This document shows positions 33,110-44,649 of a stretch of 64,000 bases of DNA, piece after piece. The stretch is from the NCBI GenBank assembly GCA_028283655.1, contig JAPWKE010000003.1:3038001-3102000 (forward strand). Direction: 5' to 3'. Position numbers and translations under genes: made by a program. Each line of letters begins with the position of its first letter. Within the stretch, counting starts at the first letter, position 1. The notes below the pieces were generated by a model. The model saw only the letters and a list, made by a program, of their open reading frames with translations. It was not told where the DNA came from and made no database searches. The DNA comes from Acidobacteriaceae bacterium (GTDB taxonomy: Bacteria; Acidobacteriota; Terriglobia; Terriglobales; Acidobacteriaceae).

Positions 33110-36100
33110 TTAGAAGAACAACCGGCCACCAACCTGGATCACTCGCATCGCAGAAGCCGAGTTGATGACACCAACCGTGGGCGAGTTGAGCGTGGCAGTG
33201 GGGTTGCTGAGGTTGACGAAGTTGAAGACGTTCGTGGCATCGCCGCGCAGTTGGAACTTGAGCGTGCGATAGACCGGGAAGTCACGGATGATTGCCATGT
33301 CGACATTCTTCGATCCCGGGCCCCAGAAACCGTTACGCTGCACCGTACCGTCAGACCCACTGGGGCCTACGCCAGGGCAGGCCGTCGGGGTGGTGGTACT
33401 GTAGCTGCAGAACGCGGCACTGTTGAAGTACTTGATAGTTCCCGTGTGGCTTCCGCTCAGGGTTGTTGGGTCGTAGGGCAGGCCGATCAGGTTCGGACGA
33501 TCCGTTGTGACGCCGTCCTGATTGTTGTCGAGGCCCGTCGTGATGGTGAAGGGTGTTCCGCTGGCGAGCTTGATGATCGGGGAGACGGTCCAGCCGTTGA
33601 AGACAAGCCGTGCGATCTTATTCCCGGTCACGTAGTTCGGCTTCCAGATAACAGCGGCGACGAAGACACTGCGCTGGTCGTTGGAAGATGGCCCCTTCTC
33701 GAGTGACATGAAGTTGGGGTCCTGAACGGAGATGGTGCTGTTGTCCAGGTTTGCGCTGGCCATCGTCTTCGACCAGGTGTAGTAGCCGTTGACGCTGATG
33801 CCCGCCTTCATGCGCTGCGAGAAAGAGATCTGCATGCCGTTGTAGTTGGAGGTGGCCCTCATTGGCTGATTGTTCACGGCACCGCCCATCTCGTTGATCA
33901 CGCCGAGGCCCGCGATGGGGCGCCGAGTATTCACGTTCGCTGTCGTATTTGCCGTCGGAGTTGCCGTGTTGAAGATGGGATAGTTCATGTCCGTCCCATA
34001 CGAGAGTGCGCGGTTCAGCGAGCCGATGTAAGCAATGGTGATCGCCGTCGTGTTGCTCAACTGCTGCTGAACGGAGGCGGTGAGTTGGTACGTAAACGGC
34101 CAGCGGAAGTTAGTGGCAATACCCTGCAGACTCGTTCCGGCAGGTGCCGCCGAGATCTGCCCAGGCGTGTAGCTGAAGGGGAACGGCGAGGGTGTGTTGA
34201 GGTAAGGGTTCGTCAACGTGCCGGGGACACCGAAGGTATAGCGGAGCGTGTAGGGATAGTAGTTCGAGGTTGCGTTCCACTGGTTGCCGGAAACGCCTCC
34301 CCAGAAGAGACCGCCAGCCGCGCGAATAGCGGTTTTGCCGTTGCCAAAGGGGTCCCAGGCAAGGCCGAGGCGCGGAGAAAAGTGCTGGAAAGCAATGGGC
34401 ACGATGCCGCGCGTGATGCCTGGGTCACCGGGGAACAGCAAGCCTTTCGGCGCGACAGGGTTGACCACAGACTGCGGGCCACCGGAGATGTATGTGGTTT
34501 CCTTGTTCTGCGGATCGGTAGGCGGAGTCTGTACGTCCCAGCGCAGGCCTGCGTTGATGGTTAGACGACGCGTGGCACGCCAGTCATCCTGAAGGAAGAG
34601 AGCATAGTAGAACGAGTTATCGATCGCGGTAACAGGGGCGTCCTGAGTTTGCGCGTTCGCTCGACCGAGTAAAAAGTCAGCCATCGCATTACCCGTACGC
34701 GCCGAAGTGCTGGAGGTGAACGTGAACGTGCCGTAATTGTTCAGGTCCGTCTGTTGCACGTCCTTATTCAGAGACGCCTCACCACCAATAGAGAGCGAGT
34801 GCGAACCCTTATTCCAGATGAACAGGTTCCGCAGCGAGTAAAAATTTGTACCGGCTGTAGGCCCGTCGATTGCGTTCGTCAGCGTGAAGTAGCCGGTGAC
34901 GCCGATGTTGGGCAGGCTGGGACGTCCCTGAATGGCGAAGGACGATCCGAAAGAGCTAAGGTCCTTGGACGGATTGTTGATACGGCCGCCGATGCTGCGC
35001 GTGTACGAGACCCAGGTCTGATCGACCTTGTTCGACGAGAGCGTGTAGGTGTGGCTCAGGTTGATGACATGTACCGTGTAGTCCTGCGCCTGCGTCGACC
35101 ACGGAATCGAGCCGGAGCCAGCCTGAATGTTATTCAAACCCTTGAGGTAGAACCACGAACCGCGGATGGTCTGCTTGTCCGTAAGCCGATGGTCGATCTT
35201 CCCCATGTACTCGTTGTAGTGCGAAGCGTAGCTCTGGCTGCCGACATAGCGAGGAGCCAGCGGGTCGGCCAGATTGGTAGCTGCCGGAAGTGCCGCCACG
35301 ATGTTCTTTGCCACCTGATCGAGTGGATCCGTAATCCGGTTGTTCGCGTAGGGCAGGCGCGTTGTCGGATTGCAGAGGATGAACTTGCCCGCAGCCTTGT
35401 CCGCAGCAGAGACAGTCTGGGCGCACGAGGTGATCGTCCCAGTAGGCAAATATGCACTGAAGTCGCCCCCTAATTGAGCTGCGGTAGGAAGAATGCCGCT
35501 GCTGAAGTTTGTCGGTGAGACGCTCCGCAAACCTGAGTAGTCAAAGAAGAAGAACGTACGGTTGCGAATGACAGGGCCGCCCAGCACACCGCCGAAGATG
35601 TTGCGATGCAGTGGGCTGCGCGTCGTGCTGCGCCATGGGTTGGCTGCAAAGTTAGTCTCGCGATGGAACTCGTAGACCGAACCATGAAATACGTTTGTTC
35701 CAGACTTCGTCACAGCGTTCACAACGCCGCTCGACATACGGCCGTATGACGCACTGTAGTTGCTGGTCTCAACGTTGACCTCGGCCAGCGCTTCCATGTT
35801 CGGCAGAGGGTTGCCCGTCATGCGCAGCGAGGTCATATTCAGGCCGCCGTCTAGGTAGTAGCTGACGTTGCCCGTATTGTTCTGAATGGTGCTTCCGTTG
35901 ATCTGGACCACTTGCTGCGGAAAGCCGAGCGTATTGCCAAAGGTGTTGCTCTGAACGCCTGGAACCAGCGTCAACAGGCTGTAGCCGCTTCGATCCACGA
36001 CAGGGAGAGATTCAATTTCCGTGGTCCCTATGGTCCTGCTCACAGTCGCATTCTCAAGCGTGATCTGCGGCGGAGAATCCGTCACCGTAACCATCTCGGA

Positions 36101-36469
36101 GTTCGATCCGGGCTTTAGAGAAACATCGAGTGTCGCCTGCTGATTCACCGATACGGACAGGTTCTTCTGCTCATACTTCTGAAATCCCTGCGCCTCAAAG
36201 TGAACCGTATAGTTGCCAATCTGCAACAGTTCGACGCGATACTCACCACCTGCGCTGGACTGAACGACACGCGCGATACCTGTGTCCTGATTCGTCACGG
36301 TCACGTTGGCATTGGGGATCACAGCGCCGGTCGTATCCGTCACCGTCCCAATGAGCGTTCCAGTAATTCGCTGCGCCCATGCAGAACCGCAGGTGAGGAA
36401 CAGAACGAAGAGGAGAGCAAGGGGGAAAGCCGTAAAGCGAGCAGTCACTTTATTTTTAACTGTGAACAT
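33110..36469 (-). CDS. TonB-dependent receptor, Oar-like, next to fucose locus
   Basis: An outer-membrane protein of about 1119 residues. The signal peptide ends near residue 33 (CGSAWAQ). A carboxypeptidase-regulatory-like domain of about 85 residues follows ('VTDTTGAVIPNANVTVTNQD', 'NYTVHFEAQGFQ'), then the plug ('VQINGSTIQNNTGNVSYYLD', 'SGVVNAVTKSGTNVFHGSVY') and the barrel, ending 'VIQVGGRLFF'. The ATG at 36469 with AGGT upstream is preferred over the open frame to 36529. It is convergent with the sulfatase gene and could be the glycan importer of the fucose locus. An 8-bp inverted repeat lies just upstream of the start. Confidence 0.9.
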   Translation of the reverse strand: MFTVKNKVTARFTAFPLALLFVLFLTCGSAWAQRITGTLIGTVTDTTGAVIPNANVTVTNQDTGIARVVQSSAGGEYRVELLQIGNYTVHFEAQGFQKYEQKNLSVSVNQQATLDVSLKPGSNSEMVTVTDSPPQITLENATVSRTIGTTEIESLPVVDRSGYSLLTLVPGVQSNTFGNTLGFPQQVVQINGSTIQNNTGNVSYYLDGGLNMTSLRMTGNPLPNMEALAEVNVETSNYSASYGRMSSGVVNAVTKSGTNVFHGSVYEFHRETNFAANPWRSTTRSPLHRNIFGGVLGGPVIRNRTFFFFDYSGLRSVSPTNFSSGILPTAAQLGGDFSAYLPTGTITSCAQTVSAADKAAGKFILCNPTTRLPYANNRITDPLDQVAKNIVAALPAATNLADPLAPRYVGSQSYASHYNEYMGKIDHRLTDKQTIRGSWFYLKGLNNIQAGSGSIPWSTQAQDYTVHVINLSHTYTLSSNKVDQTWVSYTRSIGGRINNPSKDLSSFGSSFAIQGRPSLPNIGVTGYFTLTNAIDGPTAGTNFYSLRNLFIWNKGSHSLSIGGEASLNKDVQQTDLNNYGTFTFTSSTSARTGNAMADFLLGRANAQTQDAPVTAIDNSFYYALFLQDDWRATRRLTINAGLRWDVQTPPTDPQNKETTYISGGPQSVVNPVAPKGLLFPGDPGITRGIVPIAFQHFSPRLGLAWDPFGNGKTAIRAAGGLFWGGVSGNQWNATSNYYPYTLRYTFGVPGTLTNPYLNTPSPFPFSYTPGQISAAPAGTSLQGIATNFRWPFTYQLTASVQQQLSNTTAITIAYIGSLNRALSYGTDMNYPIFNTATPTANTTANVNTRRPIAGLGVINEMGGAVNNQPMRATSNYNGMQISFSQRMKAGISVNGYYTWSKTMASANLDNSTISVQDPNFMSLEKGPSSNDQRSVFVAAVIWKPNYVTGNKIARLVFNGWTVSPIIKLASGTPFTITTGLDNNQDGVTTDRPNLIGLPYDPTTLSGSHTGTIKYFNSAAFCSYSTTTPTACPGVGPSGSDGTVQRNGFWGPGSKNVDMAIIRDFPVYRTLKFQLRGDATNVFNFVNLSNPTATLNSPTVGVINSASAMRVIQVGGRLFF

Positions 36470-36486
36470 ATTGGTTGACCTGTGAA

Positions 36487-36516
36487 ATACAGTTTTTATC
36501 GCGAGCGGAACTGTAT
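36487..36516. promoter_or_regulatory. 8-bp inverted repeat upstream of TonB receptor
   Basis: ATACAGTT and AACTGTAT are perfectly inverted across 14 bases, 18-47 bases in front of the receptor start codon, a position suited to repression. No binding protein can be named. Confidence 0.45.
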
Positions 36517-36692
36517 ATGCGCGTCGCAACAGGCGTCAACCCAAATTGGGAATATTTTTCTGCTCGGAGAAAGAAGCAGGAAAACTCGTGATCCGAGCTG
36601 ACAGCCACGAGCTATCTTCCGCTCGCTCAGAATCTCCACCTTGACCGGCCGCCGCGTCTCCGGGCTCGCAGATTCATTGGCCTCAAATAAAA

Positions 36693-36748: not shown

Positions 36749-39700
36749 TTACTGGATAGTGAGCGTGAGTGTTGTCGATGCCGTGTTGCTCGCAGTCGTC
36801 GTATCTACGCCATTTACCGTTAGGGTGTAGGTTCCTGCAATGGACTTCGTACCTGAGCCGGAGTCCGAGCAGCCGGTGATGGAAGCCAAGCCTGCGAGCA
36901 GCATCAGCGCGCATGCCAGACCAGCCAGGTTGCGATTACGGCGGAACATCAAACCCGCAGCGCAGACCGCTAACAGCGTGAGGACGATGCCCACTCCGCT
37001 ATGTGTTGTGCCGAAGCCTGCGACCCGAATGCTCTTCGCGTTGGTGTGCGAAGTGCAGCTCGTACCGGTGTAGATGTTGACCGTAGCCGTTGCCGAAGAA
37101 GCTGCAGAGACCGAAGGATTGCTGCCGATGGCATAGCAAACTCCGCTCGGCACCGAGCCCGTGACCGTCAACCCAACCGTTCCGGCGTAGGTGCTTACAG
37201 AGGTAACGTTGACCGTCGAAGCCGCTTGCGTGTTGGAGCCCAGCGTGACGTTGGTCGCGCTAAGGGTGAAGGCAGACGCTGTGGAAACGACGTTCGTGCT
37301 GATGGAGGAGCTGGACGAGCCGAAGGCTGCGTCTCCCGAATAGGTGGCCATAATGGTGTGTGTTCCTGCGGTGAGAGTGCTGAGGGATGCAGCAGCCGAT
37401 CCGTTCACAACAGCCGCAGCAGCGCCTACAGCGGTGCCATCGACAGAGAACTGAACCGTGCCGGTTGCCGTAGCGGCGAGAACTGCCGTCGCGGTGACCT
37501 TGCTGGCAGTAGTCGGGGCGGTGGGATTGATGCTGAGCGCAATCGTGCTTGCGCTGCCGTCCGATACCGTAAAGGCAAGGTATCCGCTGGAGGCTGCGAG
37601 CGAGGTATTGCCAGCGAACGTGCTGAGGATAATGTGCTTGCCTGCAGCGAGCTGCCCGAGCGCAACCGTCGCTACACCGTTGGTGATGGTGGTGGGAGTG
37701 CTGAGGGCCGTGCCGTCTACGGTGAACTGCACCGTGCCGCTGACTGCGCTCGCCGTTGTTGCGTTAACGGTCGCGCTGACCGAAACGTTGGTTGTGGTGT
37801 TCGGGTTCGCAGAGAGCAGCGTGACGATGGTGTTGCTCGCCGCCGGTGCCTGCACCGTGATTGCCGCCGCGCCAGTGGAGGCCGCGATGCCGGTCGTGCC
37901 GCTGTAGACGGCGGTGACGTTATGAACACCAGCGACCAGGGTGAGTCCCGCCGAGGTTGCCGTGCCGTTGGCGATGGTGACCGGCGTTCCGCTCACAGTT
38001 CCATCGACGTAGAACTGCACCGTACCCGCAATAGCCGTGGAGGTCGAGGCCACGGTTGCAGTGAAGGTGACGCTCTGCGTCGGGTACGGGCTGGCGATGG
38101 ACGCAGTGATCGTCGTGGTGGAGATGACGGGCTGGCTACCTGTGCCGTACTTCGGCAAAGCGGTTGCCAGCACGTAGGCATCGATGGAACCGAGGCCAGT
38201 GGCGAGGTCATAGCCTGTGGTGGCGCTATAGCCAATGCTCGTGGTGCCTGCCGGGCAATTGGTGCTACCGGAAGTGCAGGGGCTGTTGTTGTTGCCTACC
38301 GTGATGTCGTGGAAGGCCGAAGGCGTCGTGCCGTACAGCGGGTACAGCGTGGTGTTGAAGTTGCCCTGGCCTGCCGCACCGGTGGCCTGGTTATAAATGG
38401 TGAGGATGCCTGCAAAGATCGGCGCTGCAAACGAAGTGCCGCCTGCATAGTATGTGGAACCCGCAGCGCAGGAAGTCGACGCGCTGTACGCGCTGGTGCA
38501 GTAGAAGTACGGATCATGCGCGCTGGCCGAGTCCAGCGAGATGTCCGGTGTGTCGCGCTTGCCATCGGCAGGAACACCTGTCGCCACCTGCCATGAGGGC
38601 TTGGTGTAGACGGTGCTTGCACCACCGCCACCAGCGGCGAGCCCGCCGGAGGCCACGGTATCGTTCCACACCATTTCGGGGATGTACGAGAGTGCTGAAC
38701 CGTAGGCCGAGTTATTGGTGCTGTTCCAGTAGGTTGCAGAGCCTTCATTGAACTCCGTTCCACCAATGGCGGTTACGTAGGACGAAGCGCCCGGGAACTG
38801 GAGCTCCAGACCTTTCGTAGCTGATGTGTTCGAGGAGGCATCGCAGCCCGTTGCGCCGGAGTCTCCGGAGGCAACAACGATCGTCTGTCCCTGTGCATTG
38901 GCCTGCTGGTACAGCGTGTCGTAGCTGGCGCGCGTTGTGGTGGAAAGGCTGGTCTCGCAGGTGCCATAGCTCACACTGATGACCGGTGCGAGGTCGTTGA
39001 CGATGGCATACTGGATCGCCGTGAAGACGTTCGAACTCGTGCCGGTGTATACGAAGTTAATCGTTGCGTCCTTCGCGATGGCGCCTGAGTATTCGATGTC
39101 TAGATCAGACTCGCCTTCATCACCCGAGATGAAGGTAGCGGTACCTGTGCTCGGCACGAGCGTCAACTGCAGATTCGTATTGCCGCCGAAGAGCTTGCGG
39201 AAGTCGCTGATATCGCTGGCGACGACCTCGCTCTGGCCGACGACCACGATGGTTTGCCCTGCACCGGTGTAGCCAGCGGTGTAGAGCGGAGCGACGTTAT
39301 AGATGGTGCGAACATCGTCCGGCGTCATGTAGTGATTGCCCGAACCAGCAGTGTAGTTGGGCGACATCTGCGTGCTTTTCGGTGTCGTCGAGCCACCATA
39401 CTTGATGTGATTGCCGTGCGGACGCAGCGAGTTCAGACCGTTGACATCGCTGACCACACCGTTCAACGCTGCAGGCAGCGAGATCTCGGTGGAGTTTGCG
39501 AAGTAGGTGGTGTCGGCGGTGGTGTACTGGTGCAGCTGGGTGTTAAAGGCCGCTTCCACCTGCGACGACGTGCCGGAGAACTGCACGCGCATCGGACTTG
39601 CCTCTACGATCGAGAAGCCCTGCGACTGCAGCCACGCCGTGACACGTGCGAGGTCCGCATCGGAGATGCCGAAGCGTTCGTTGAACTGCGTAGGCGTCAA

Positions 39701-40021
39701 CCACTGGTGGTACTGAGCTGACTTCGGATCATGCTGGCTGAGGAGCAGTTGATCGAGATCAGCCTGCTGCGTGGAGGAGAGCGAGAACTGCAGCATGAGC
39801 GAGGTAAGTTGCGTGCTGCCGGGCAGGCGTCCTGCGTCGGCTGCGCCCGCGAGCATGCGCGCGGTGCTGCCGCTCAGGGGCAATTTCGTGGTGCTATTGA
39901 TGGCTGCGACACGCGAGGGGCGGGCCGTTTGCGCCTGGCTGCCAGCCACGGCGCTGAAGAAGATCAGCGCGCTGGCGGCGGTCGTCCGAAGCAGGCGACG
40001 TACGTTGTATGGAGTCGACAT
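36749..40021 (-). CDS. S53 family peptidase (sedolisin/pro-kumamolisin) with Ig repeats and C-terminal anchor-like module
   Basis: A protein of about 1090 residues. A signal peptide (to about 31) is followed by a pro-kumamolisin activation domain (about 50-200), a linker, and the S53 catalytic domain with Glu304 and Asp308 in 'GESDLDIEY', Asp387 in 'ASGDSGATG' and Ser530 in 'GGTSFAAP', so the acid-active triad is intact. Four Big_3-type Ig repeats follow (about 640-980), then two hydrophobic helices split by RRNRN and the motif ITGCSDS, and a last beta-rich tail. The ATG at 40021 has GAGG six bases upstream. It lies 67 bases after the GloVer gene, whose C-terminus has the same module. Secreted proteolysis of extracellular protein is the likely role. 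Confidence 0.9.
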   Translation of the reverse strand: MSTPYNVRRLLRTTAASALIFFSAVAGSQAQTARPSRVAAINSTTKLPLSGSTARMLAGAADAGRLPGSTQLTSLMLQFSLSSTQQADLDQLLLSQHDPKSAQYHQWLTPTQFNERFGISDADLARVTAWLQSQGFSIVEASPMRVQFSGTSSQVEAAFNTQLHQYTTADTTYFANSTEISLPAALNGVVSDVNGLNSLRPHGNHIKYGGSTTPKSTQMSPNYTAGSGNHYMTPDDVRTIYNVAPLYTAGYTGAGQTIVVVGQSEVVASDISDFRKLFGGNTNLQLTLVPSTGTATFISGDEGESDLDIEYSGAIAKDATINFVYTGTSSNVFTAIQYAIVNDLAPVISVSYGTCETSLSTTTRASYDTLYQQANAQGQTIVVASGDSGATGCDASSNTSATKGLELQFPGASSYVTAIGGTEFNEGSATYWNSTNNSAYGSALSYIPEMVWNDTVASGGLAAGGGGASTVYTKPSWQVATGVPADGKRDTPDISLDSASAHDPYFYCTSAYSASTSCAAGSTYYAGGTSFAAPIFAGILTIYNQATGAAGQGNFNTTLYPLYGTTPSAFHDITVGNNNSPCTSGSTNCPAGTTSIGYSATTGYDLATGLGSIDAYVLATALPKYGTGSQPVISTTTITASIASPYPTQSVTFTATVASTSTAIAGTVQFYVDGTVSGTPVTIANGTATSAGLTLVAGVHNVTAVYSGTTGIAASTGAAAITVQAPAASNTIVTLLSANPNTTTNVSVSATVNATTASAVSGTVQFTVDGTALSTPTTITNGVATVALGQLAAGKHIILSTFAGNTSLAASSGYLAFTVSDGSASTIALSINPTAPTTASKVTATAVLAATATGTVQFSVDGTAVGAAAAVVNGSAAASLSTLTAGTHTIMATYSGDAAFGSSSSSISTNVVSTASAFTLSATNVTLGSNTQAASTVNVTSVSTYAGTVGLTVTGSVPSGVCYAIGSNPSVSAASSATATVNIYTGTSCTSHTNAKSIRVAGFGTTHSGVGIVLTLLAVCAAGLMFRRNRNLAGLACALMLLAGLASITGCSDSGSGTKSIAGTYTLTVNGVDTTTASNTASTTLTLTIQ

Positions 40022-40044
40022 AGAGGTCCTCATCAAGCGTTAGG

Positions 40045-40067
40045 CAGTGCCTGCACCGCAGGCACTG
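40045..40067 (-). other. intercistronic hairpin
   Basis: A perfect 10-bp stem (CAGTGCCTGC/GCAGGCACTG) with a 3-base loop, between the GloVer stop and the sedolisin start. No U-run follows, so it may act as an mRNA processing or stability element in a shared transcript, or as a weak attenuator. Confidence 0.5.
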
Positions 40068-40088
40068 GCATGAAGATCGGTACGCGGT

Positions 40089-42317
40089 TTACTGCACCGT
40101 CATCGTGATCGTGGTCGTCGCTGTTTGTGTGCCAGCGGTGGCCGTCACCGTTACGGTGCTGGAGCCAGTAGGCGTTCCATAGGTTGTGGTCTTCGCGGGG
40201 GAGTCCGAGCATCCGCTGAGTCCGAAGCCCATACCGAGCAGCAGCACCGCCAGAGCAGAGCTACGTACGAGCATTGAGCGGCGACGGAACGCCAGCAGGA
40301 TTGCAAGCGTTCCCGGGAAGGCGAAGGCCAGCATCAGACCGTTGCTCTGCGTTTTCACGAGAGCGAGGCTGCGTTGCGTTGTGATCGACAGCGGAAGCGT
40401 GTTCGAACCAACACTGCCGGCGACCGTTCCCGGTGTGCAGACCGACCCTGCAGGCAAGCCTGCGCAGGTGATGGTGAACGCGCTGCTGGTGAAGTTCGAC
40501 AGCGCCAGCATCGCGTTGGCCGACTGACCTGCAGTCAGCGTGAACGAGGAAGGCGTGCCCACGACCGTCGGAGTAGCTGCGGTGACCGTCAGCGTGAGCG
40601 GGAAGCTGAACGTTGCAGGCGATGTTTCGCTGTCTCCGACAGTCACCGTGAAGCTATAGGTTCCAGCGAGCGTAGGTGTGCCGGAGATCGCGCCGTTGGA
40701 GGAGTTCACCGTGAGGCCCGGAGGCAGAGCACCCGCCGAAACCGACCAGGTGAGCGGGCTCAGGCCATTGCTGGTGGTGAACGATGCGCTATAGGCCGAG
40801 CCTACGGTAGCGTTCGACAGCGTGGGTGCGGTTGCGGTCATTGCAGGGACAGTCAGCGTAGCGAAGCCGGACTCTGTACCGCCGCAGGTGAGCGCGTAGG
40901 TGAAGGTGCCGGACTGCGTCGGAACGATCGTCGACTGGCCCTGCCACAGCGTGCCGGCAACGACGCCCGTCTGCACACCGGTCCAGGTACCACCACCGAC
41001 GGCGTTGTTCTGCACGAATGCGGCGCACATACGCATGGTGTCGGAGAAGGCGTTCGTCACCGTCCAGTTGAGGGTCGCCGAGCCGCCGAGCGTTACGGTG
41101 CTTGCCGAAAGAGCAAGCTGAACAGGCGCTGCAACCGAAGGCGTCAGCACCGCCTTATAAATCAGGCCCACGCCGTTGGCGCCACCGCCGGCGACACCGT
41201 AGAGGTTGCCGTCTGCACCGAAGATCGGAGCAGCGAGCGGGTCCGTTCCATCGGTTGCCGAGGTCGTCATCGTTTTCAGGATCGTCTTGGTTCCGGTCGG
41301 CGTGATCTGGTAGACCGTCGAGGGCGATTCCGTCGTTGTGCCGTAGAAGTTGCCGTCCGTGCCCAGCGTCAACTGACCTTCCGGGCGTCCGCTATCGCCG
41401 TTTGCGCCGGTGAAGAGATGCAGCACAGTCAGCGTGCCGTCCTTGGCCACCTTGTAGACACTGCCCTGGCCCGTTTCGTCGTCGCCATTCAGAAAGAGGC
41501 CGTAGTTGTGGTTCGCACCATAGAAGCTGCCATCCGGTCCTTCGACGAGCGCACCATCGGATCCGCCACCATCTACCGTCAGAAAGTGGTGGAGGGTTGT
41601 GAAGGTCTGACCGTCGGCCGTCATGGAGAAGACAGAACCGTTGAAGTAGTTCGTGTCGCCGGTTTCGTTCGTGTTGGTGGTGCCATAGAAAAGGCCGTCA
41701 TCACCTTGAATCATGCCGACATACGGATTGCTTTCGTCAGCGTTCATGCCGGTAAAGGTGTGCAGCGTGGTGAAGTTGCCGTCCTTTGTCATCTTGAAGA
41801 CGGTGCCAAAGCTCAGGCTGCCGCCGCCGGAGGCCGTGCCATAGAGAGCGCCGTCGGTTCCTTCCACCAGCGTGGCAAAGACGCCCGAGCCGTCGGTCGC
41901 CTTGGTGAAGCTATGCAACACGGTGTAGACGCCGCTTGGGGTCAGCTTGAAGATCACGCCGCCCGCAGGATTGCCACCGAGATAAGTTGTGCCGTAGAAG
42001 TTGCCGTCCGTACCCTGGATCAGACTGTCTTCCGGGTAGTAGCCGCTCGCGCCATTCGAGAACGAATAGACAGGAGTGAACACGCCGGCCGTAGTGATCT
42101 TGAAGATCACGCCATACCCGCCGGTGCCAGCCCGCCAGGACATACCCCAGAGATTGCCGTCGGCTGCCTGGATCAGGTGGCCGTAAAGGCTTTGGCCGTC
42201 GGTGGCCGAGTTCAGGCTGTAGAGCGCTGAGTATTGGGCCGTGGTCTGCCCGAAGGCAAGGCTGGCTGACAGGGTGGTCAGCACAAACAGAGCGATGAAG
42301 CGGTAGAGGCGTCTCAA
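40089..42317 (-). CDS. GloVer (TIGR03803) tandem-repeat secreted protein with Ig domain and C-terminal anchor-like module
   Basis: About 742 residues. The start I favour is a TTG at 42317 with GAGGAG seven bases upstream, giving a compact signal peptide (to about SLAFGQ); the frame is open to 42518. Roughly ten repeats of about 40 residues follow, each of the type 'GTVFKMTKDGNFTTLHTF' with 'GTDGNFYGTT' (GloVer repeats, probably a beta-propeller), to about residue 410. An unassigned domain, a putative-Ig (He_PIG) domain with 'ALPPGLTVNSSNGAISGTPT' and another Ig-like stretch come next. The C-terminus has two helices around FRRRSM, then LSGCSDS and a beta-rich tail, as in the downstream sedolisin. 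Surface or secreted; ligand unknown. Confidence 0.85.
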   Translation of the reverse strand: MRRLYRFIALFVLTTLSASLAFGQTTAQYSALYSLNSATDGQSLYGHLIQAADGNLWGMSWRAGTGGYGVIFKITTAGVFTPVYSFSNGASGYYPEDSLIQGTDGNFYGTTYLGGNPAGGVIFKLTPSGVYTVLHSFTKATDGSGVFATLVEGTDGALYGTASGGGSLSFGTVFKMTKDGNFTTLHTFTGMNADESNPYVGMIQGDDGLFYGTTNTNETGDTNYFNGSVFSMTADGQTFTTLHHFLTVDGGGSDGALVEGPDGSFYGANHNYGLFLNGDDETGQGSVYKVAKDGTLTVLHLFTGANGDSGRPEGQLTLGTDGNFYGTTTESPSTVYQITPTGTKTILKTMTTSATDGTDPLAAPIFGADGNLYGVAGGGANGVGLIYKAVLTPSVAAPVQLALSASTVTLGGSATLNWTVTNAFSDTMRMCAAFVQNNAVGGGTWTGVQTGVVAGTLWQGQSTIVPTQSGTFTYALTCGGTESGFATLTVPAMTATAPTLSNATVGSAYSASFTTSNGLSPLTWSVSAGALPPGLTVNSSNGAISGTPTLAGTYSFTVTVGDSETSPATFSFPLTLTVTAATPTVVGTPSSFTLTAGQSANAMLALSNFTSSAFTITCAGLPAGSVCTPGTVAGSVGSNTLPLSITTQRSLALVKTQSNGLMLAFAFPGTLAILLAFRRRSMLVRSSALAVLLLGMGFGLSGCSDSPAKTTTYGTPTGSSTVTVTATAGTQTATTTITMTVQ

Positions 42318-42666
42318 GAGCTGTCTCCTCAAAGCAGGAAGATGGGGCCAAGACATCTGGCAGGTACACGGGATCCGTCGCCTGCGAAGCAGCAAATCGT
42401 TCGCAGCGGAGCCAGTTGGAAAGAAAGACCCTCCGCGAAGCTCGACCTGGTGCGGAGGGTTTTGGAGGCAGTGGATCGTGATATCGCTGACTATGAAAGC
42501 TCTTGAGCGCCGTAGCAAGACTCATTTTTGAATGATCTTTTTACCTGGATGCCTCAGGCTATCTCTTTTCATATGAATGAAATATATGACGGGGCGATGA
42601 ACGGCATCATCCGCGTCAACCTGTCATGCCGATTGTCTCGCTCGCCACAAATTGCGAGAATGCGGC
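42318..42666. other. divergent intergenic region with hairpin
   Basis: No gene in about 350 bases separating the GloVer gene (minus) from the CadC-like gene (plus). A 9-bp stem ACCCTCCGC/GCGGAGGGT with a 15-base loop occupies 42428-42460; on the plus strand it is followed by TTT, but no plus-strand gene precedes it. It may be a leader structure of the GloVer-sedolisin transcript. The promoters themselves were not recognised. Confidence 0.45.
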
Positions 42667-44649
42667 ATGGAGACATCTCAGCGAACGGTTTTCACCTTCG
42701 CCACCTTCGTATTCGATCCGGTTACCGGAGAGCTTACGAACCGTGGCCGACGTGTGCCGATCAATCAGCAGATCGCCGACTTGCTGACTCTCCTGCTGGA
42801 GAACGCCGGGACGCTGGTAACGCGTGAGCAGATCAAACACGCACTCTGGCCCGACCAGAACTATCTGAACCACGACAAGATTCTGACCAACGCGGTCAGC
42901 CGTCTTCGCTACCTCATGGGCGACCGCTCCACCGAACAGCCGTATATCGTCAACATCCCCAAGCGCGGGTATCGCTTTGAGGCGAAAGTTCAACGGGTAG
43001 CCCCTGTAGGGAGCACAAACGTTGCCCCTCTGCCCGCCGCCCCGACAGAACTCAGCGCCTTTGCCGCACCCGAGCGCCGCGATCTCCCAGCCGAGAAGCT
43101 CACTCCGCCAGCGGAAATTGTTCTGGGATCTGCCGAAAAATCGTTGCCTGGTCGGAGCCTTTGGTATGGGCTGACGGCGTGCCTGGTGCTCGTCGTAGCG
43201 TCAGCGGGATGGTACTTCGTCAGCGTACATCGCCAGGTGACGCCACAGATATACGTCACTACCGTCGGCATCCCGCCATTTCAAACCCCCAATGACCCGG
43301 CCTCGAAGGAGCTTGCTGAAAGCTTTCGGCTCGATCTGACCGATTCGCTCTCCGACCGCTCGCATGTCGCCGTCCGGGCGGCGCACTCGCTGGAAGCCTT
43401 CGATATCGGCTCGCAGGACTTCCGCCAGCGAGCGATCGCTCTGGGGCTGGATGTGCTGGTGCTGGGACACTTCCAGCTACAGCAGGACCGCTGCCAACTG
43501 GACCTGGAACTCGTGCACGGCAGCGACCTTTCGCACATCATCACGTTGCAGTACAGCGTTCCGCGCGAGCAGATTGCCCGCCTTCGGGATCAGGTGCAAC
43601 ATGAACTGCCGCAGCAACTTACAGGCGGCCGCAGTACGGAGGCGGCGAGCGGCGTGAGTAATGACGCCGCATATGACGCCTACCTGCGTGCGGGCTATCA
43701 TCTCTCGCAGCCCTCGCCCGACTCCATGCAGCAGGCCCTGCAGGAGTATAAGCAGGCCATTCGCCTTGATCCGGGATTTGCAAAAGCCTACTCCGGGCAA
43801 GCGCGAGCCTACTTCTTTCTTCAGCAGGCCGGAGCCATGCCTGCCGAAGAAAGCCTGAAGCTTGCCCAGGAGTCGGCCCGGAAAGCTCTTGAGTTGGACC
43901 CACACTCGGCAGAGCCACACGCCATCCTCGGCCTCATTGCTGCTTTCCACGAGTTCCATCTGGCCGAGGGCGAGAAGGAACTGGCACAAGCGATCTCCAT
44001 CGATCCGAACCTTCCGTTCTACCGGCAAGGCATGGCGCTGCTCTACTGCGAAGAAGGCCAGTTCACTCGCGCGCTGGCACAACTCGATATTGCTCATGCG
44101 AACGATCCGTTCTGGGTTTCGGCCTACATCACGGACGCTCATATCTCGGGGATCGCCGGAAACGCCGCCCGGCTGCAGCAGGACATCGCGAAGCTGCGTC
44201 AACTCGCTCCAAACGCAGCGCGCGCGGCAGACTCCATCGCCAACGCAGAGTGGAATATGGGGCAGTACACCGACGCCATTCAGGAGTGGCATGAGATGGC
44301 GCTGAAGGAAGGCGACCATGACCGCGCCGTGCTGGAGGAGCAAGGACTTGAAGCCTTTCGCCGTGGCGGCGTCTCGGCCTATGCGCGCGTACGTATTCAG
44401 GCAATCCACGACGGCAAAGGAATCGAGTCTCATCCGAACGACTTCGTCCTGGCGGAGTGGTATCCGGTAGCTGGAGAGCGTCAACTCGCGCTCCAGTCCA
44501 TCCATGAAGCGATCGACCGGCACGACACCTCGATGCTGAGCTTGGCCGTGTTGCCGAACTACAGCAGCCTACGAAACTTGCCGGAGTTCACAGCGCTGGT
44601 GAAACAAGCTGGGCTAACGCTGGTGACGACGCCGGTAGCTGCCCACTAA
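42667..44649 (+). CDS. CadC-like membrane-bound winged-helix regulator with TPR domain
   Basis: About 660 residues. The N-terminal OmpR/CadC-type winged helix (about 8-105) shows 'RRVPINQQIADLLTLLLENAG', 'VTREQIKHALWP', 'ILTNAVSRLRYLMGD' and 'IVNIPKRGYRFEA'. A single membrane helix lies at about 165-187. The outer part first has a PD40/FlgO-like alpha-beta segment and then TPR repeats (about 325-560; 'AIRLDPGFAKAYSGQARAYF', 'ALELDPHSAEPHAILGL'). This is the common acidobacterial ToxR-like signal transducer. The ATG at 42667 is chosen over one at 42652. Target genes are not known; the divergent GloVer-sedolisin operon is the natural candidate. Confidence 0.87.
   Translation: METSQRTVFTFATFVFDPVTGELTNRGRRVPINQQIADLLTLLLENAGTLVTREQIKHALWPDQNYLNHDKILTNAVSRLRYLMGDRSTEQPYIVNIPKRGYRFEAKVQRVAPVGSTNVAPLPAAPTELSAFAAPERRDLPAEKLTPPAEIVLGSAEKSLPGRSLWYGLTACLVLVVASAGWYFVSVHRQVTPQIYVTTVGIPPFQTPNDPASKELAESFRLDLTDSLSDRSHVAVRAAHSLEAFDIGSQDFRQRAIALGLDVLVLGHFQLQQDRCQLDLELVHGSDLSHIITLQYSVPREQIARLRDQVQHELPQQLTGGRSTEAASGVSNDAAYDAYLRAGYHLSQPSPDSMQQALQEYKQAIRLDPGFAKAYSGQARAYFFLQQAGAMPAEESLKLAQESARKALELDPHSAEPHAILGLIAAFHEFHLAEGEKELAQAISIDPNLPFYRQGMALLYCEEGQFTRALAQLDIAHANDPFWVSAYITDAHISGIAGNAARLQQDIAKLRQLAPNAARAADSIANAEWNMGQYTDAIQEWHEMALKEGDHDRAVLEEQGLEAFRRGGVSAYARVRIQAIHDGKGIESHPNDFVLAEWYPVAGERQLALQSIHEAIDRHDTSMLSLAVLPNYSSLRNLPEFTALVKQAGLTLVTTPVAAH

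Follow-up and report, generated by a model that had tools for sequence, protein, structure and literature searches.

Why do two exported proteins with unrelated main domains, a sedolisin-type protease and a GloVer (TIGR03803) repeat protein, end in the same kind of C-terminal tail? The question is raised by a 64,000-nucleotide stretch of contig JAPWKE010000003.1 from Acidobacteriaceae bacterium GCA_028283655.1 (the window, to which all coordinates refer), whose translation contains both open reading frames and both tails as a preliminary description had reported. There the tail was seen as a possible uncharacterised sorting or anchoring module built of two hydrophobic helices, a basic turn, a lipoprotein-like Cys and a beta tail. 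That observation is confirmed and its interpretation as a whole partly supported: with a probability of roughly 60%, we regard the module as a C-terminal membrane anchor, in which an internal lipoprotein signal peptide is inserted in an immunoglobulin-like (Ig) domain of the NEW3 type. The modules proper cover about 36752-37270 and 40092-40574, the span first described taking in both genes, and their parts are as follows:

36749-40036, minus strand: open reading frame of the sedolisin-type protease, which carries module 1 (Pro-kumamolisin activation domain, three Big_3_5 stretches)
39932-40036, minus strand: N-terminal signal peptide of the sedolisin, probable cut after SQA (by eye; start codon uncertain)
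37061-37270, minus strand: module 1, N part of the split NEW3-like Ig domain, residues 923-992 (positions 3-71 of the uninterrupted-domain profile; locus L025)
36944-36997, minus strand: module 1, helix 1, residues 1014-1031 (by eye)
36929-36943, minus strand: module 1, basic turn RRNRN (mapped from the translation)
36869-36928, minus strand: module 1, helix 2 or lipoprotein-type signal peptide, ending I-T-G-C (Cys 36869-36871)
36752-36841, minus strand: module 1, C part of the split Ig domain, residues 1066-1095 (profile positions 66-94; L025)
40089-42518, minus strand: open reading frame of the GloVer (TIGR03803) repeat protein with one He_PIG domain, which carries module 2 (domain scans)
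42249-42356, minus strand: N-terminal signal peptide of the GloVer protein, from Met at residue 55 of the open frame (by eye; start inferred)
40374-40574, minus strand: module 2, N part of the split Ig domain, residues 649-715 (profile positions 4-66; locus L008; AlphaFold strands)
40287-40340, minus strand: module 2, helix 1, residues 727-744 (by eye)
40260-40286, minus strand: module 2, basic turn RRRSMLVRS (mapped from the translation)
40209-40259, minus strand: module 2, helix 2 or lipoprotein-type signal peptide, ending L-S-G-C (Cys 40209-40211)
40092-40178, minus strand: module 2, C part of the split Ig domain, residues 781-809 (profile positions 63-94; L008; AlphaFold strands, model residues 137-160)

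The sedolisin thus ends in ...GVGIVLTLLAVCAAGLMF-RRNRN-LAGLACALMLLAGLASITGC-SDSGSG...TLTLTIQ and the GloVer protein in ...GLMLAFAFPGTLAILLAF-RRRSMLVRS-SALAVLLLGMGFGLSGC-SDSPAK...TITMTVQ. Taken alone, this likeness proves little, since pairwise BLASTP of the last 125 residues is weak (34% over 68 residues, E 1.1, not significant), and support for a shared module rests on the family of matches, not on this pair. The module is not uncatalogued; NCBIfam already lists it as NF058595.1 (invert_tail, 'lipo-invert putative C-terminal anchoring domain'). On the GloVer protein this model covers residues 710-809 with 46.8 bits (E 3.3e-12) in a direct NCBIfam scan, over its 37-bit cut-off, and reaches E 2.2e-13 in the genome search. 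The sedolisin obtains 34.8 bits (E 5.8e-8) in the genome search, below the cut-off, and its direct NCBIfam scan gave no match of any kind up to E 1. The host genome yields 52 matches at E 1 or better, 22 of them above the cut-off. When the best 30 of the 52 were read, every one showed a helix, a basic turn, a second helix and a Cys near the C-terminus (30/30), and in 29 the match stops no more than 17 residues before the stop codon, locus L026 having 114 residues more. An extended model, A1, made of 24 modules including both of the window and five others of the host genome, gives 37 matches there at E 0.001 or better, of which 35 are near full length at E 1.7e-9 or better; those beyond the 30 loci read are counted by score. 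The sedolisin scores 98.5 bits under A1, being itself a row of that model. The matches therefore reach well beyond close homologues of the two proteins. At E 1e-4, the 29 host proteins considered (the 30 without the broken L014) match 35 Pfam families, and the 25 families listed include five sedolisins, 9-10 NHL propellers, three FG-GAP and two GH28 proteins. An N-terminal signal peptide was found by a crude script in 25 of 27 host carriers (window genes excluded) and is convincing by eye in 22, but not in L122, L136 and L137. What the preliminary description proposed from two tails holds for the family: the module is portable and sits at the C-terminus of exported proteins whose main domains are unrelated. 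As a separate observation, NF058595 seems to miss many members (22 above the cut-off vs about 35 near-full-length A1 matches), and its direct scan lists 9 of the 29 host proteins at E 1e-4.

What, then, is the beta tail behind the Cys? The loci read have a sequence of the type 'NGFTGTVTLSCSGLP..CSFSP...STLTITTT' before helix 1 and one like 'GTPAGTYTVTVTGTSGS..TTTVTLTV' after the Cys, and in proteins without the module the same two pieces are directly joined. We built a profile of 94 positions from 306 uninterrupted domains in 71 module-free proteins among 134; this avoids circularity, and the profile derives from relatives, not from the Pfam NEW3 model. It was applied to the flanks of 122 modules (59 genomic and 63 from protein searches, at permissive thresholds; L008 and P0001 are the same protein). 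All shuffled controls score below the N flank in 122/122 modules, below the C flank in 118/122 and below both in 118/122; the flank medians are 37.4 (N) and 23.4 bits (C) vs -0.8 and 1.9 bits in the shuffled controls. The median N-side match ends at profile position 69 and the median C-side match begins at 65, running to position 94 in 116/122. An N-side match above 10 bits is present in 57 of the 59 genomic modules, a result that is not built in, because NF058595, which chose the genomic set, starts near the end of the N part on the GloVer protein.

If the hairpin is cut out and the two parts are joined, a single domain reappears. Splicing at fixed offsets (28 residues before the basic loop and 9 after the Cys, both medians from the same set) removes a median insert of 63.5 residues and gives 46.95 bits with a continuous match in 103/122, compared with 35.1 bits and 0/122 when the hairpin is left in. 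Retaining six extra hairpin residues on each side lowers this to 35.35 bits and 34 continuous matches, and shuffling the C part to 31.5 bits and 40; a control with swapped order was uninformative (median 36.0 vs 36.3), since local matching takes the N part either way. A structure match over 94 residues is to an Ig domain, and a profile search of solved-structure sequences gave nothing up to E 1. Precomputed labels on relatives point to the NEW3-type or sialidase Ig-like domain (PF10633; Micromonospora sialidase 405-502), from which the module differs by an interruption of about 63 residues comprising hairpin and Cys. The hairpin is thus inserted into one loop of a NEW3-like Ig domain, and the beta tail of 35 residues is not free but forms the last part of that domain, begun before helix 1. 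Most of the split domain lies outside NF058595, whose match on the GloVer protein covers the N part (649-715) only from residue 710 onwards. The catalogue entry is known; the split domain and the correctly oriented internal lipobox are our additions, of which NCBI's notes may include part, the entry being compared here by name, length and cut-off.

Two further observations concern the domain and the stretch around helix 1. In L026 / L138 (G000:C3:574643-575407) the C part is apparently enlarged, by eye, by a further beta-rich stretch of roughly 90-100 residues that precedes the last strand; a second insertion may therefore be compatible with the completed Ig domain. P0028, P0037, P0086 and similar proteins form a subfamily in which helix 1 shows conservation of the type 'FYAMWLPIGGLALLG'. 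Other proteins lack this stretch, which could be a lineage mark or an additional site of recognition.

The residues around the Cys were counted in the 103 modules left of the 122 after removal of near-duplicates. At -1 there is Gly in 68, Ala in 29 and Ser in 5 (102/103), at -3 Leu in 36, Ala in 13, Ile in 12, Met in 11 and Val in 11, and at +2 Gly in 71 and Ser in 21. An uncharged stretch of 16-20 residues precedes the Cys in 94/103. The loop between the helices carries a net charge of +2 to +8 and is more positive than both flanks in every module (103/103), while the distance from the Cys to the C-terminal end is 33-59 residues in 102 modules (138 in L026). The detection rule drew on Cys, hydrophobicity and basic residues, but took no account of the -1 residue or of those after the Cys. 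PMC8048626, against which lipobox and pathway were checked, defines the lipobox as [LV][ASTVI][GAS]C, with variants reported. Helix 2 resembles a lipoprotein signal peptide and points the right way, and the basic turn favours a location of both hairpin ends outside, in agreement with what had been proposed for the Cys and for the helix pair. The identical GCSDS is indeed present in both window proteins, but incidental in the family, where +2 and +3 are mostly Gly or Ser and only the Cys is an invariant column (59/59 loci read, all selected by a Cys-containing model). A script for N-terminal lipoproteins, run on 20 genome stretches and the window, returned 40 candidates, mostly false; about seven look real by eye and all of these have Gly or Ala at -1, a set too small for statistics.

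The paired hydrophobic segments and the basic loop between them, as seen in the modules read, would also suit a plain membrane hairpin, in which the two helices anchor the protein and the Cys is kept for a different purpose, for instance a disulfide. Not only the Cys but also its neighbours follow the lipobox, however, with Gly, Ala or Ser at -1 in 102/103 and small Gly or Ser after it, and we consider this explanation the least probable of those weighed here. A hydropathy scan of the 71 module-free proteins detected none with such a hairpin lacking the Cys; its seven hits are C-terminal helices of another kind (P0018, P0077, P0080) or strands, P0077 having six intact domains and a different membrane part.

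Alternatively, lipidation may not be followed by cleavage. Lgt might modify the Cys at a site that LspA cannot reach, and the protein would remain undivided, with both helices and, close to the C-terminus, a lipid. The lipobox pattern of the 103 modules fits this version as well, no known internal LspA substrate was found in the open-licence PubMed Central (PMC) literature, and with a covalently attached C part, two-chain stability of the Ig domain would not be required. On the other hand, the small residue at -1 would be needed for LspA cleavage as well as for Lgt recognition, and the Gly/Ser-rich linker after the Cys resembles that of cleaved lipoproteins, for which such a linker is typical. 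We hold lipidation without cleavage to be unlikely. Lgt probably lipidates the Cys, and for cleavage by LspA before the Cys we see a slightly better than even chance.

Combining the split domain with the internal lipoprotein signal, the anchor is most likely assembled in the following way. The N-terminal signal peptide would thread the exported protein out of the cell, until helix 1 re-enters the inner membrane with the basic turn staying cytoplasmic; helix 2 would exit again and present the lipobox and Cys on the outer face, as in an ordinary prolipoprotein. The last approximately 30 residues would supply the final strands and complete the Ig domain begun before helix 1. Lgt would attach diacylglycerol to the Cys and LspA would probably then cut before it, turning the C-terminal strands into an N-terminally lipidated peptide of 33-59 residues in 102/103 modules. 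The main chain would keep both helices in the inner membrane after the LspA cut, and beside this helix pair the lipidated C part would staple the main protein non-covalently via the Ig fold. Such a self-assembling two-chain anchor, in which housekeeping enzymes cut an exported protein and lipidated strands staple their partner without covalent bond or dedicated sortase, is put forward tentatively, at somewhat less than even odds.

A second cut could follow: LspA would free the C part, another protease would cut before helix 1, and an Ig domain held by its lipid only would reach the outer membrane or surface via Lol or type II secretion. Asp at +2 is the inner-membrane retention signal of Escherichia coli, and it occurs in 0/103 modules; LolA has one match in the host genome. 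For MYXO-CTERM proteins, lipidation and helix removal are a proposed route to surface display (PMC11980579). The alignments made show, unlike those expected of known C-terminal sorting signals, no invariant motif ahead of helix 1 (a candidate protease was not searched for), and we rate the two-step route as quite improbable.

The membrane anchor with an internal lipoprotein signal in a split Ig domain has to be set against several points which speak against it. The split domain, the lipobox pattern, the charge topology and the distribution were computed; lipidation and LspA cleavage, as well as non-covalent retention and final location, are inferred. In the open-licence PMC literature, no precedent was met for a lipobox being processed downstream of another helix. 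The detection rule itself asked for the Cys, the basic loop and the hydrophobic stretch, whose presence is thus partly by construction; the strict pattern [LVI][ASTVI][GAS]C occurs in 50/103 modules only, and one module has Arg at -1. A mean hydropathy of 1.6 over 17 residues is reached by helix 2 in 98/103 and by helix 1 in 72/103 (the N part of the Ig domain, as a control, in 7/103), so that helix 1 is moderately hydrophobic and may be a weak span in some proteins. By a strict rule (fewer than six profile positions of overlap), the flanks are cleanly complementary in 68/122. A first crude splice brought no gain, the joined parts being better than the better part alone in 26/122, because 25-30 hairpin residues remained; it was superseded by the fixed-offset test. 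The AlphaFold model is modest, with a predicted local distance difference test (pLDDT) score of 67 and values below 50 for the hairpin, and plain Foldseek found no match at E 0.001 or better.

A natural two-gene version, with the C part encoded on its own, would have been strong support. All 18 short proteins found were read; most come from short contigs and are apparently fragments, while the contigs of P0135, P0140 and P0151 measure 6, 196 and 11 kb. P0151 has 67 residues, with a basic start, a hydrophobic stretch, LSGC and then the C part of the Ig domain; it is a possible stand-alone half and the only short protein that could be real. Six short genomic frames, L110 to L115, were also inspected: frame breaks account for L110, L113 and L114 (G000:C3:3017828-3018142), the N part of L112 contains an in-frame stop, and L111 begins at a contig edge. 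L114, L112, L110 and L113 are apparently module genes broken upstream of the hairpin by a frame change or in-frame stop, which may reflect decay or assembly error.

Is the module confined to the relatives of its host? We sampled 297 genomes of the phylum, 36 of the host family (f1) and 261 others. A1 at E 1e-8 matches in 36/36 f1 genomes and in 20/261 others, 15 of these 20 with one match. The strong A1 matches outside f1 are in two genomes of family f40; their loci L042 and L047, which are the ones read among the 20 non-f1 genomes, contain split domain and hairpin. NF058595 at E 1e-5 matches in 36/36 f1 genomes and 21/261 others, and each of the eight genomes of family f79, which belongs to the same order, has 3-13 matches. 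No match at E 1e-5 was found in 13 of 14 control genomes, Thermus composti scoring under the cut-off. A pattern scan of reference genomes returned at least six loci, those listed being all from Acidobacteria by title.

The preliminary description had also asked whether the module covaries with one transferase or protease gene; our survey covered Lgt and LspA. Of 21 genomes, 20 have a single LspA, and the remaining one is 67% complete. At least two Lgt matches are present in 12 of 13 genomes of the host genus, host included, and in 33 of the 36 sampled f1 genomes, while seven of the eight f79 genomes have one. A second Lgt is thus common in f1, but it is not needed: the single-Lgt f1 genomes G022, G107 and G194 have at least six, eight and five module matches (the best 14 candidates at most being scored per genome), and the seven single-Lgt f79 genomes have 3-11. 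In the single-Lgt genomes the matches were counted by the NF058595 model and only fetched loci were read. The second Lgt as a dedicated partner was therefore rejected. Since single-copy relatives have many module matches, no dedicated Lgt or LspA partner is needed, and in gene content housekeeping Lgt and LspA seem to be enough. Both Lgt copies of G000 score 121.9 and 86.8 bits, below the f79 Lgt (164-189 bits), an observation not tied to the module.

With bacterial lipoprotein signal peptides, the substrates of Lgt and LspA, the module shares a basic n-region, an uncharged h-region, the lipobox Cys, Gly/Ser-rich residues thereafter and an N-in orientation by charge. Its copy differs in being internal, near the C-terminus, and placed after another helix and a whole exported protein, which mostly has an N-terminal signal peptide of its own; an N-terminal location is a feature it lacks. 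MYXO-CTERM with its myxosortase likewise combines a C-terminal module, an invariant Cys, a helix and an Arg-rich cytoplasmic part. According to PMC11980579, it consists of a Cys motif, one helix and an Arg-rich end, its topology is inverted and a lipobox is not defined; Cys lipidation is proposed there with Lgt as the leading candidate. In the module, by contrast, the second helix lies ahead of the Cys, and a portion of a folded domain comes behind the Cys. PEP-CTERM and MYXO-CTERM run from motif to last helix to terminal basic cluster, whereas here a second helix follows the basic cluster, and the order of the parts differs from that in the analogy drawn earlier. In open-licence PMC texts on C-terminal sorting in Acidobacteria, on internal lipoprotein signals and under the NCBI name, no paper describing the module was found.

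The genes beside the two carriers, assigned by eye, are a large TonB-receptor-like protein with an N-terminal carboxypeptidase-regulatory-like domain, which adjoins the sedolisin (33110-36529, minus strand), and a likely transmembrane regulator with winged-helix N-terminus, one helix and TPR-like repeats (42652-44649, plus strand), divergent from the GloVer gene.

Acidobacteria are among the commonest soil bacteria. If the proposed reading is true, they use an internal lipoprotein signal, one that would escape predictors which examine N-termini, to anchor a good part of their secretome, including proteases, polygalacturonases, propeller and Ig-repeat proteins. For such a C-terminal lipid anchor, the housekeeping enzymes Lgt and LspA would take the place of a dedicated sortase, and with one more cut, ahead of helix 1, proteins could be displayed on the outer membrane by a C-terminal lipid. 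The same organisms would have a natural split-domain staple, reusable in protein engineering.
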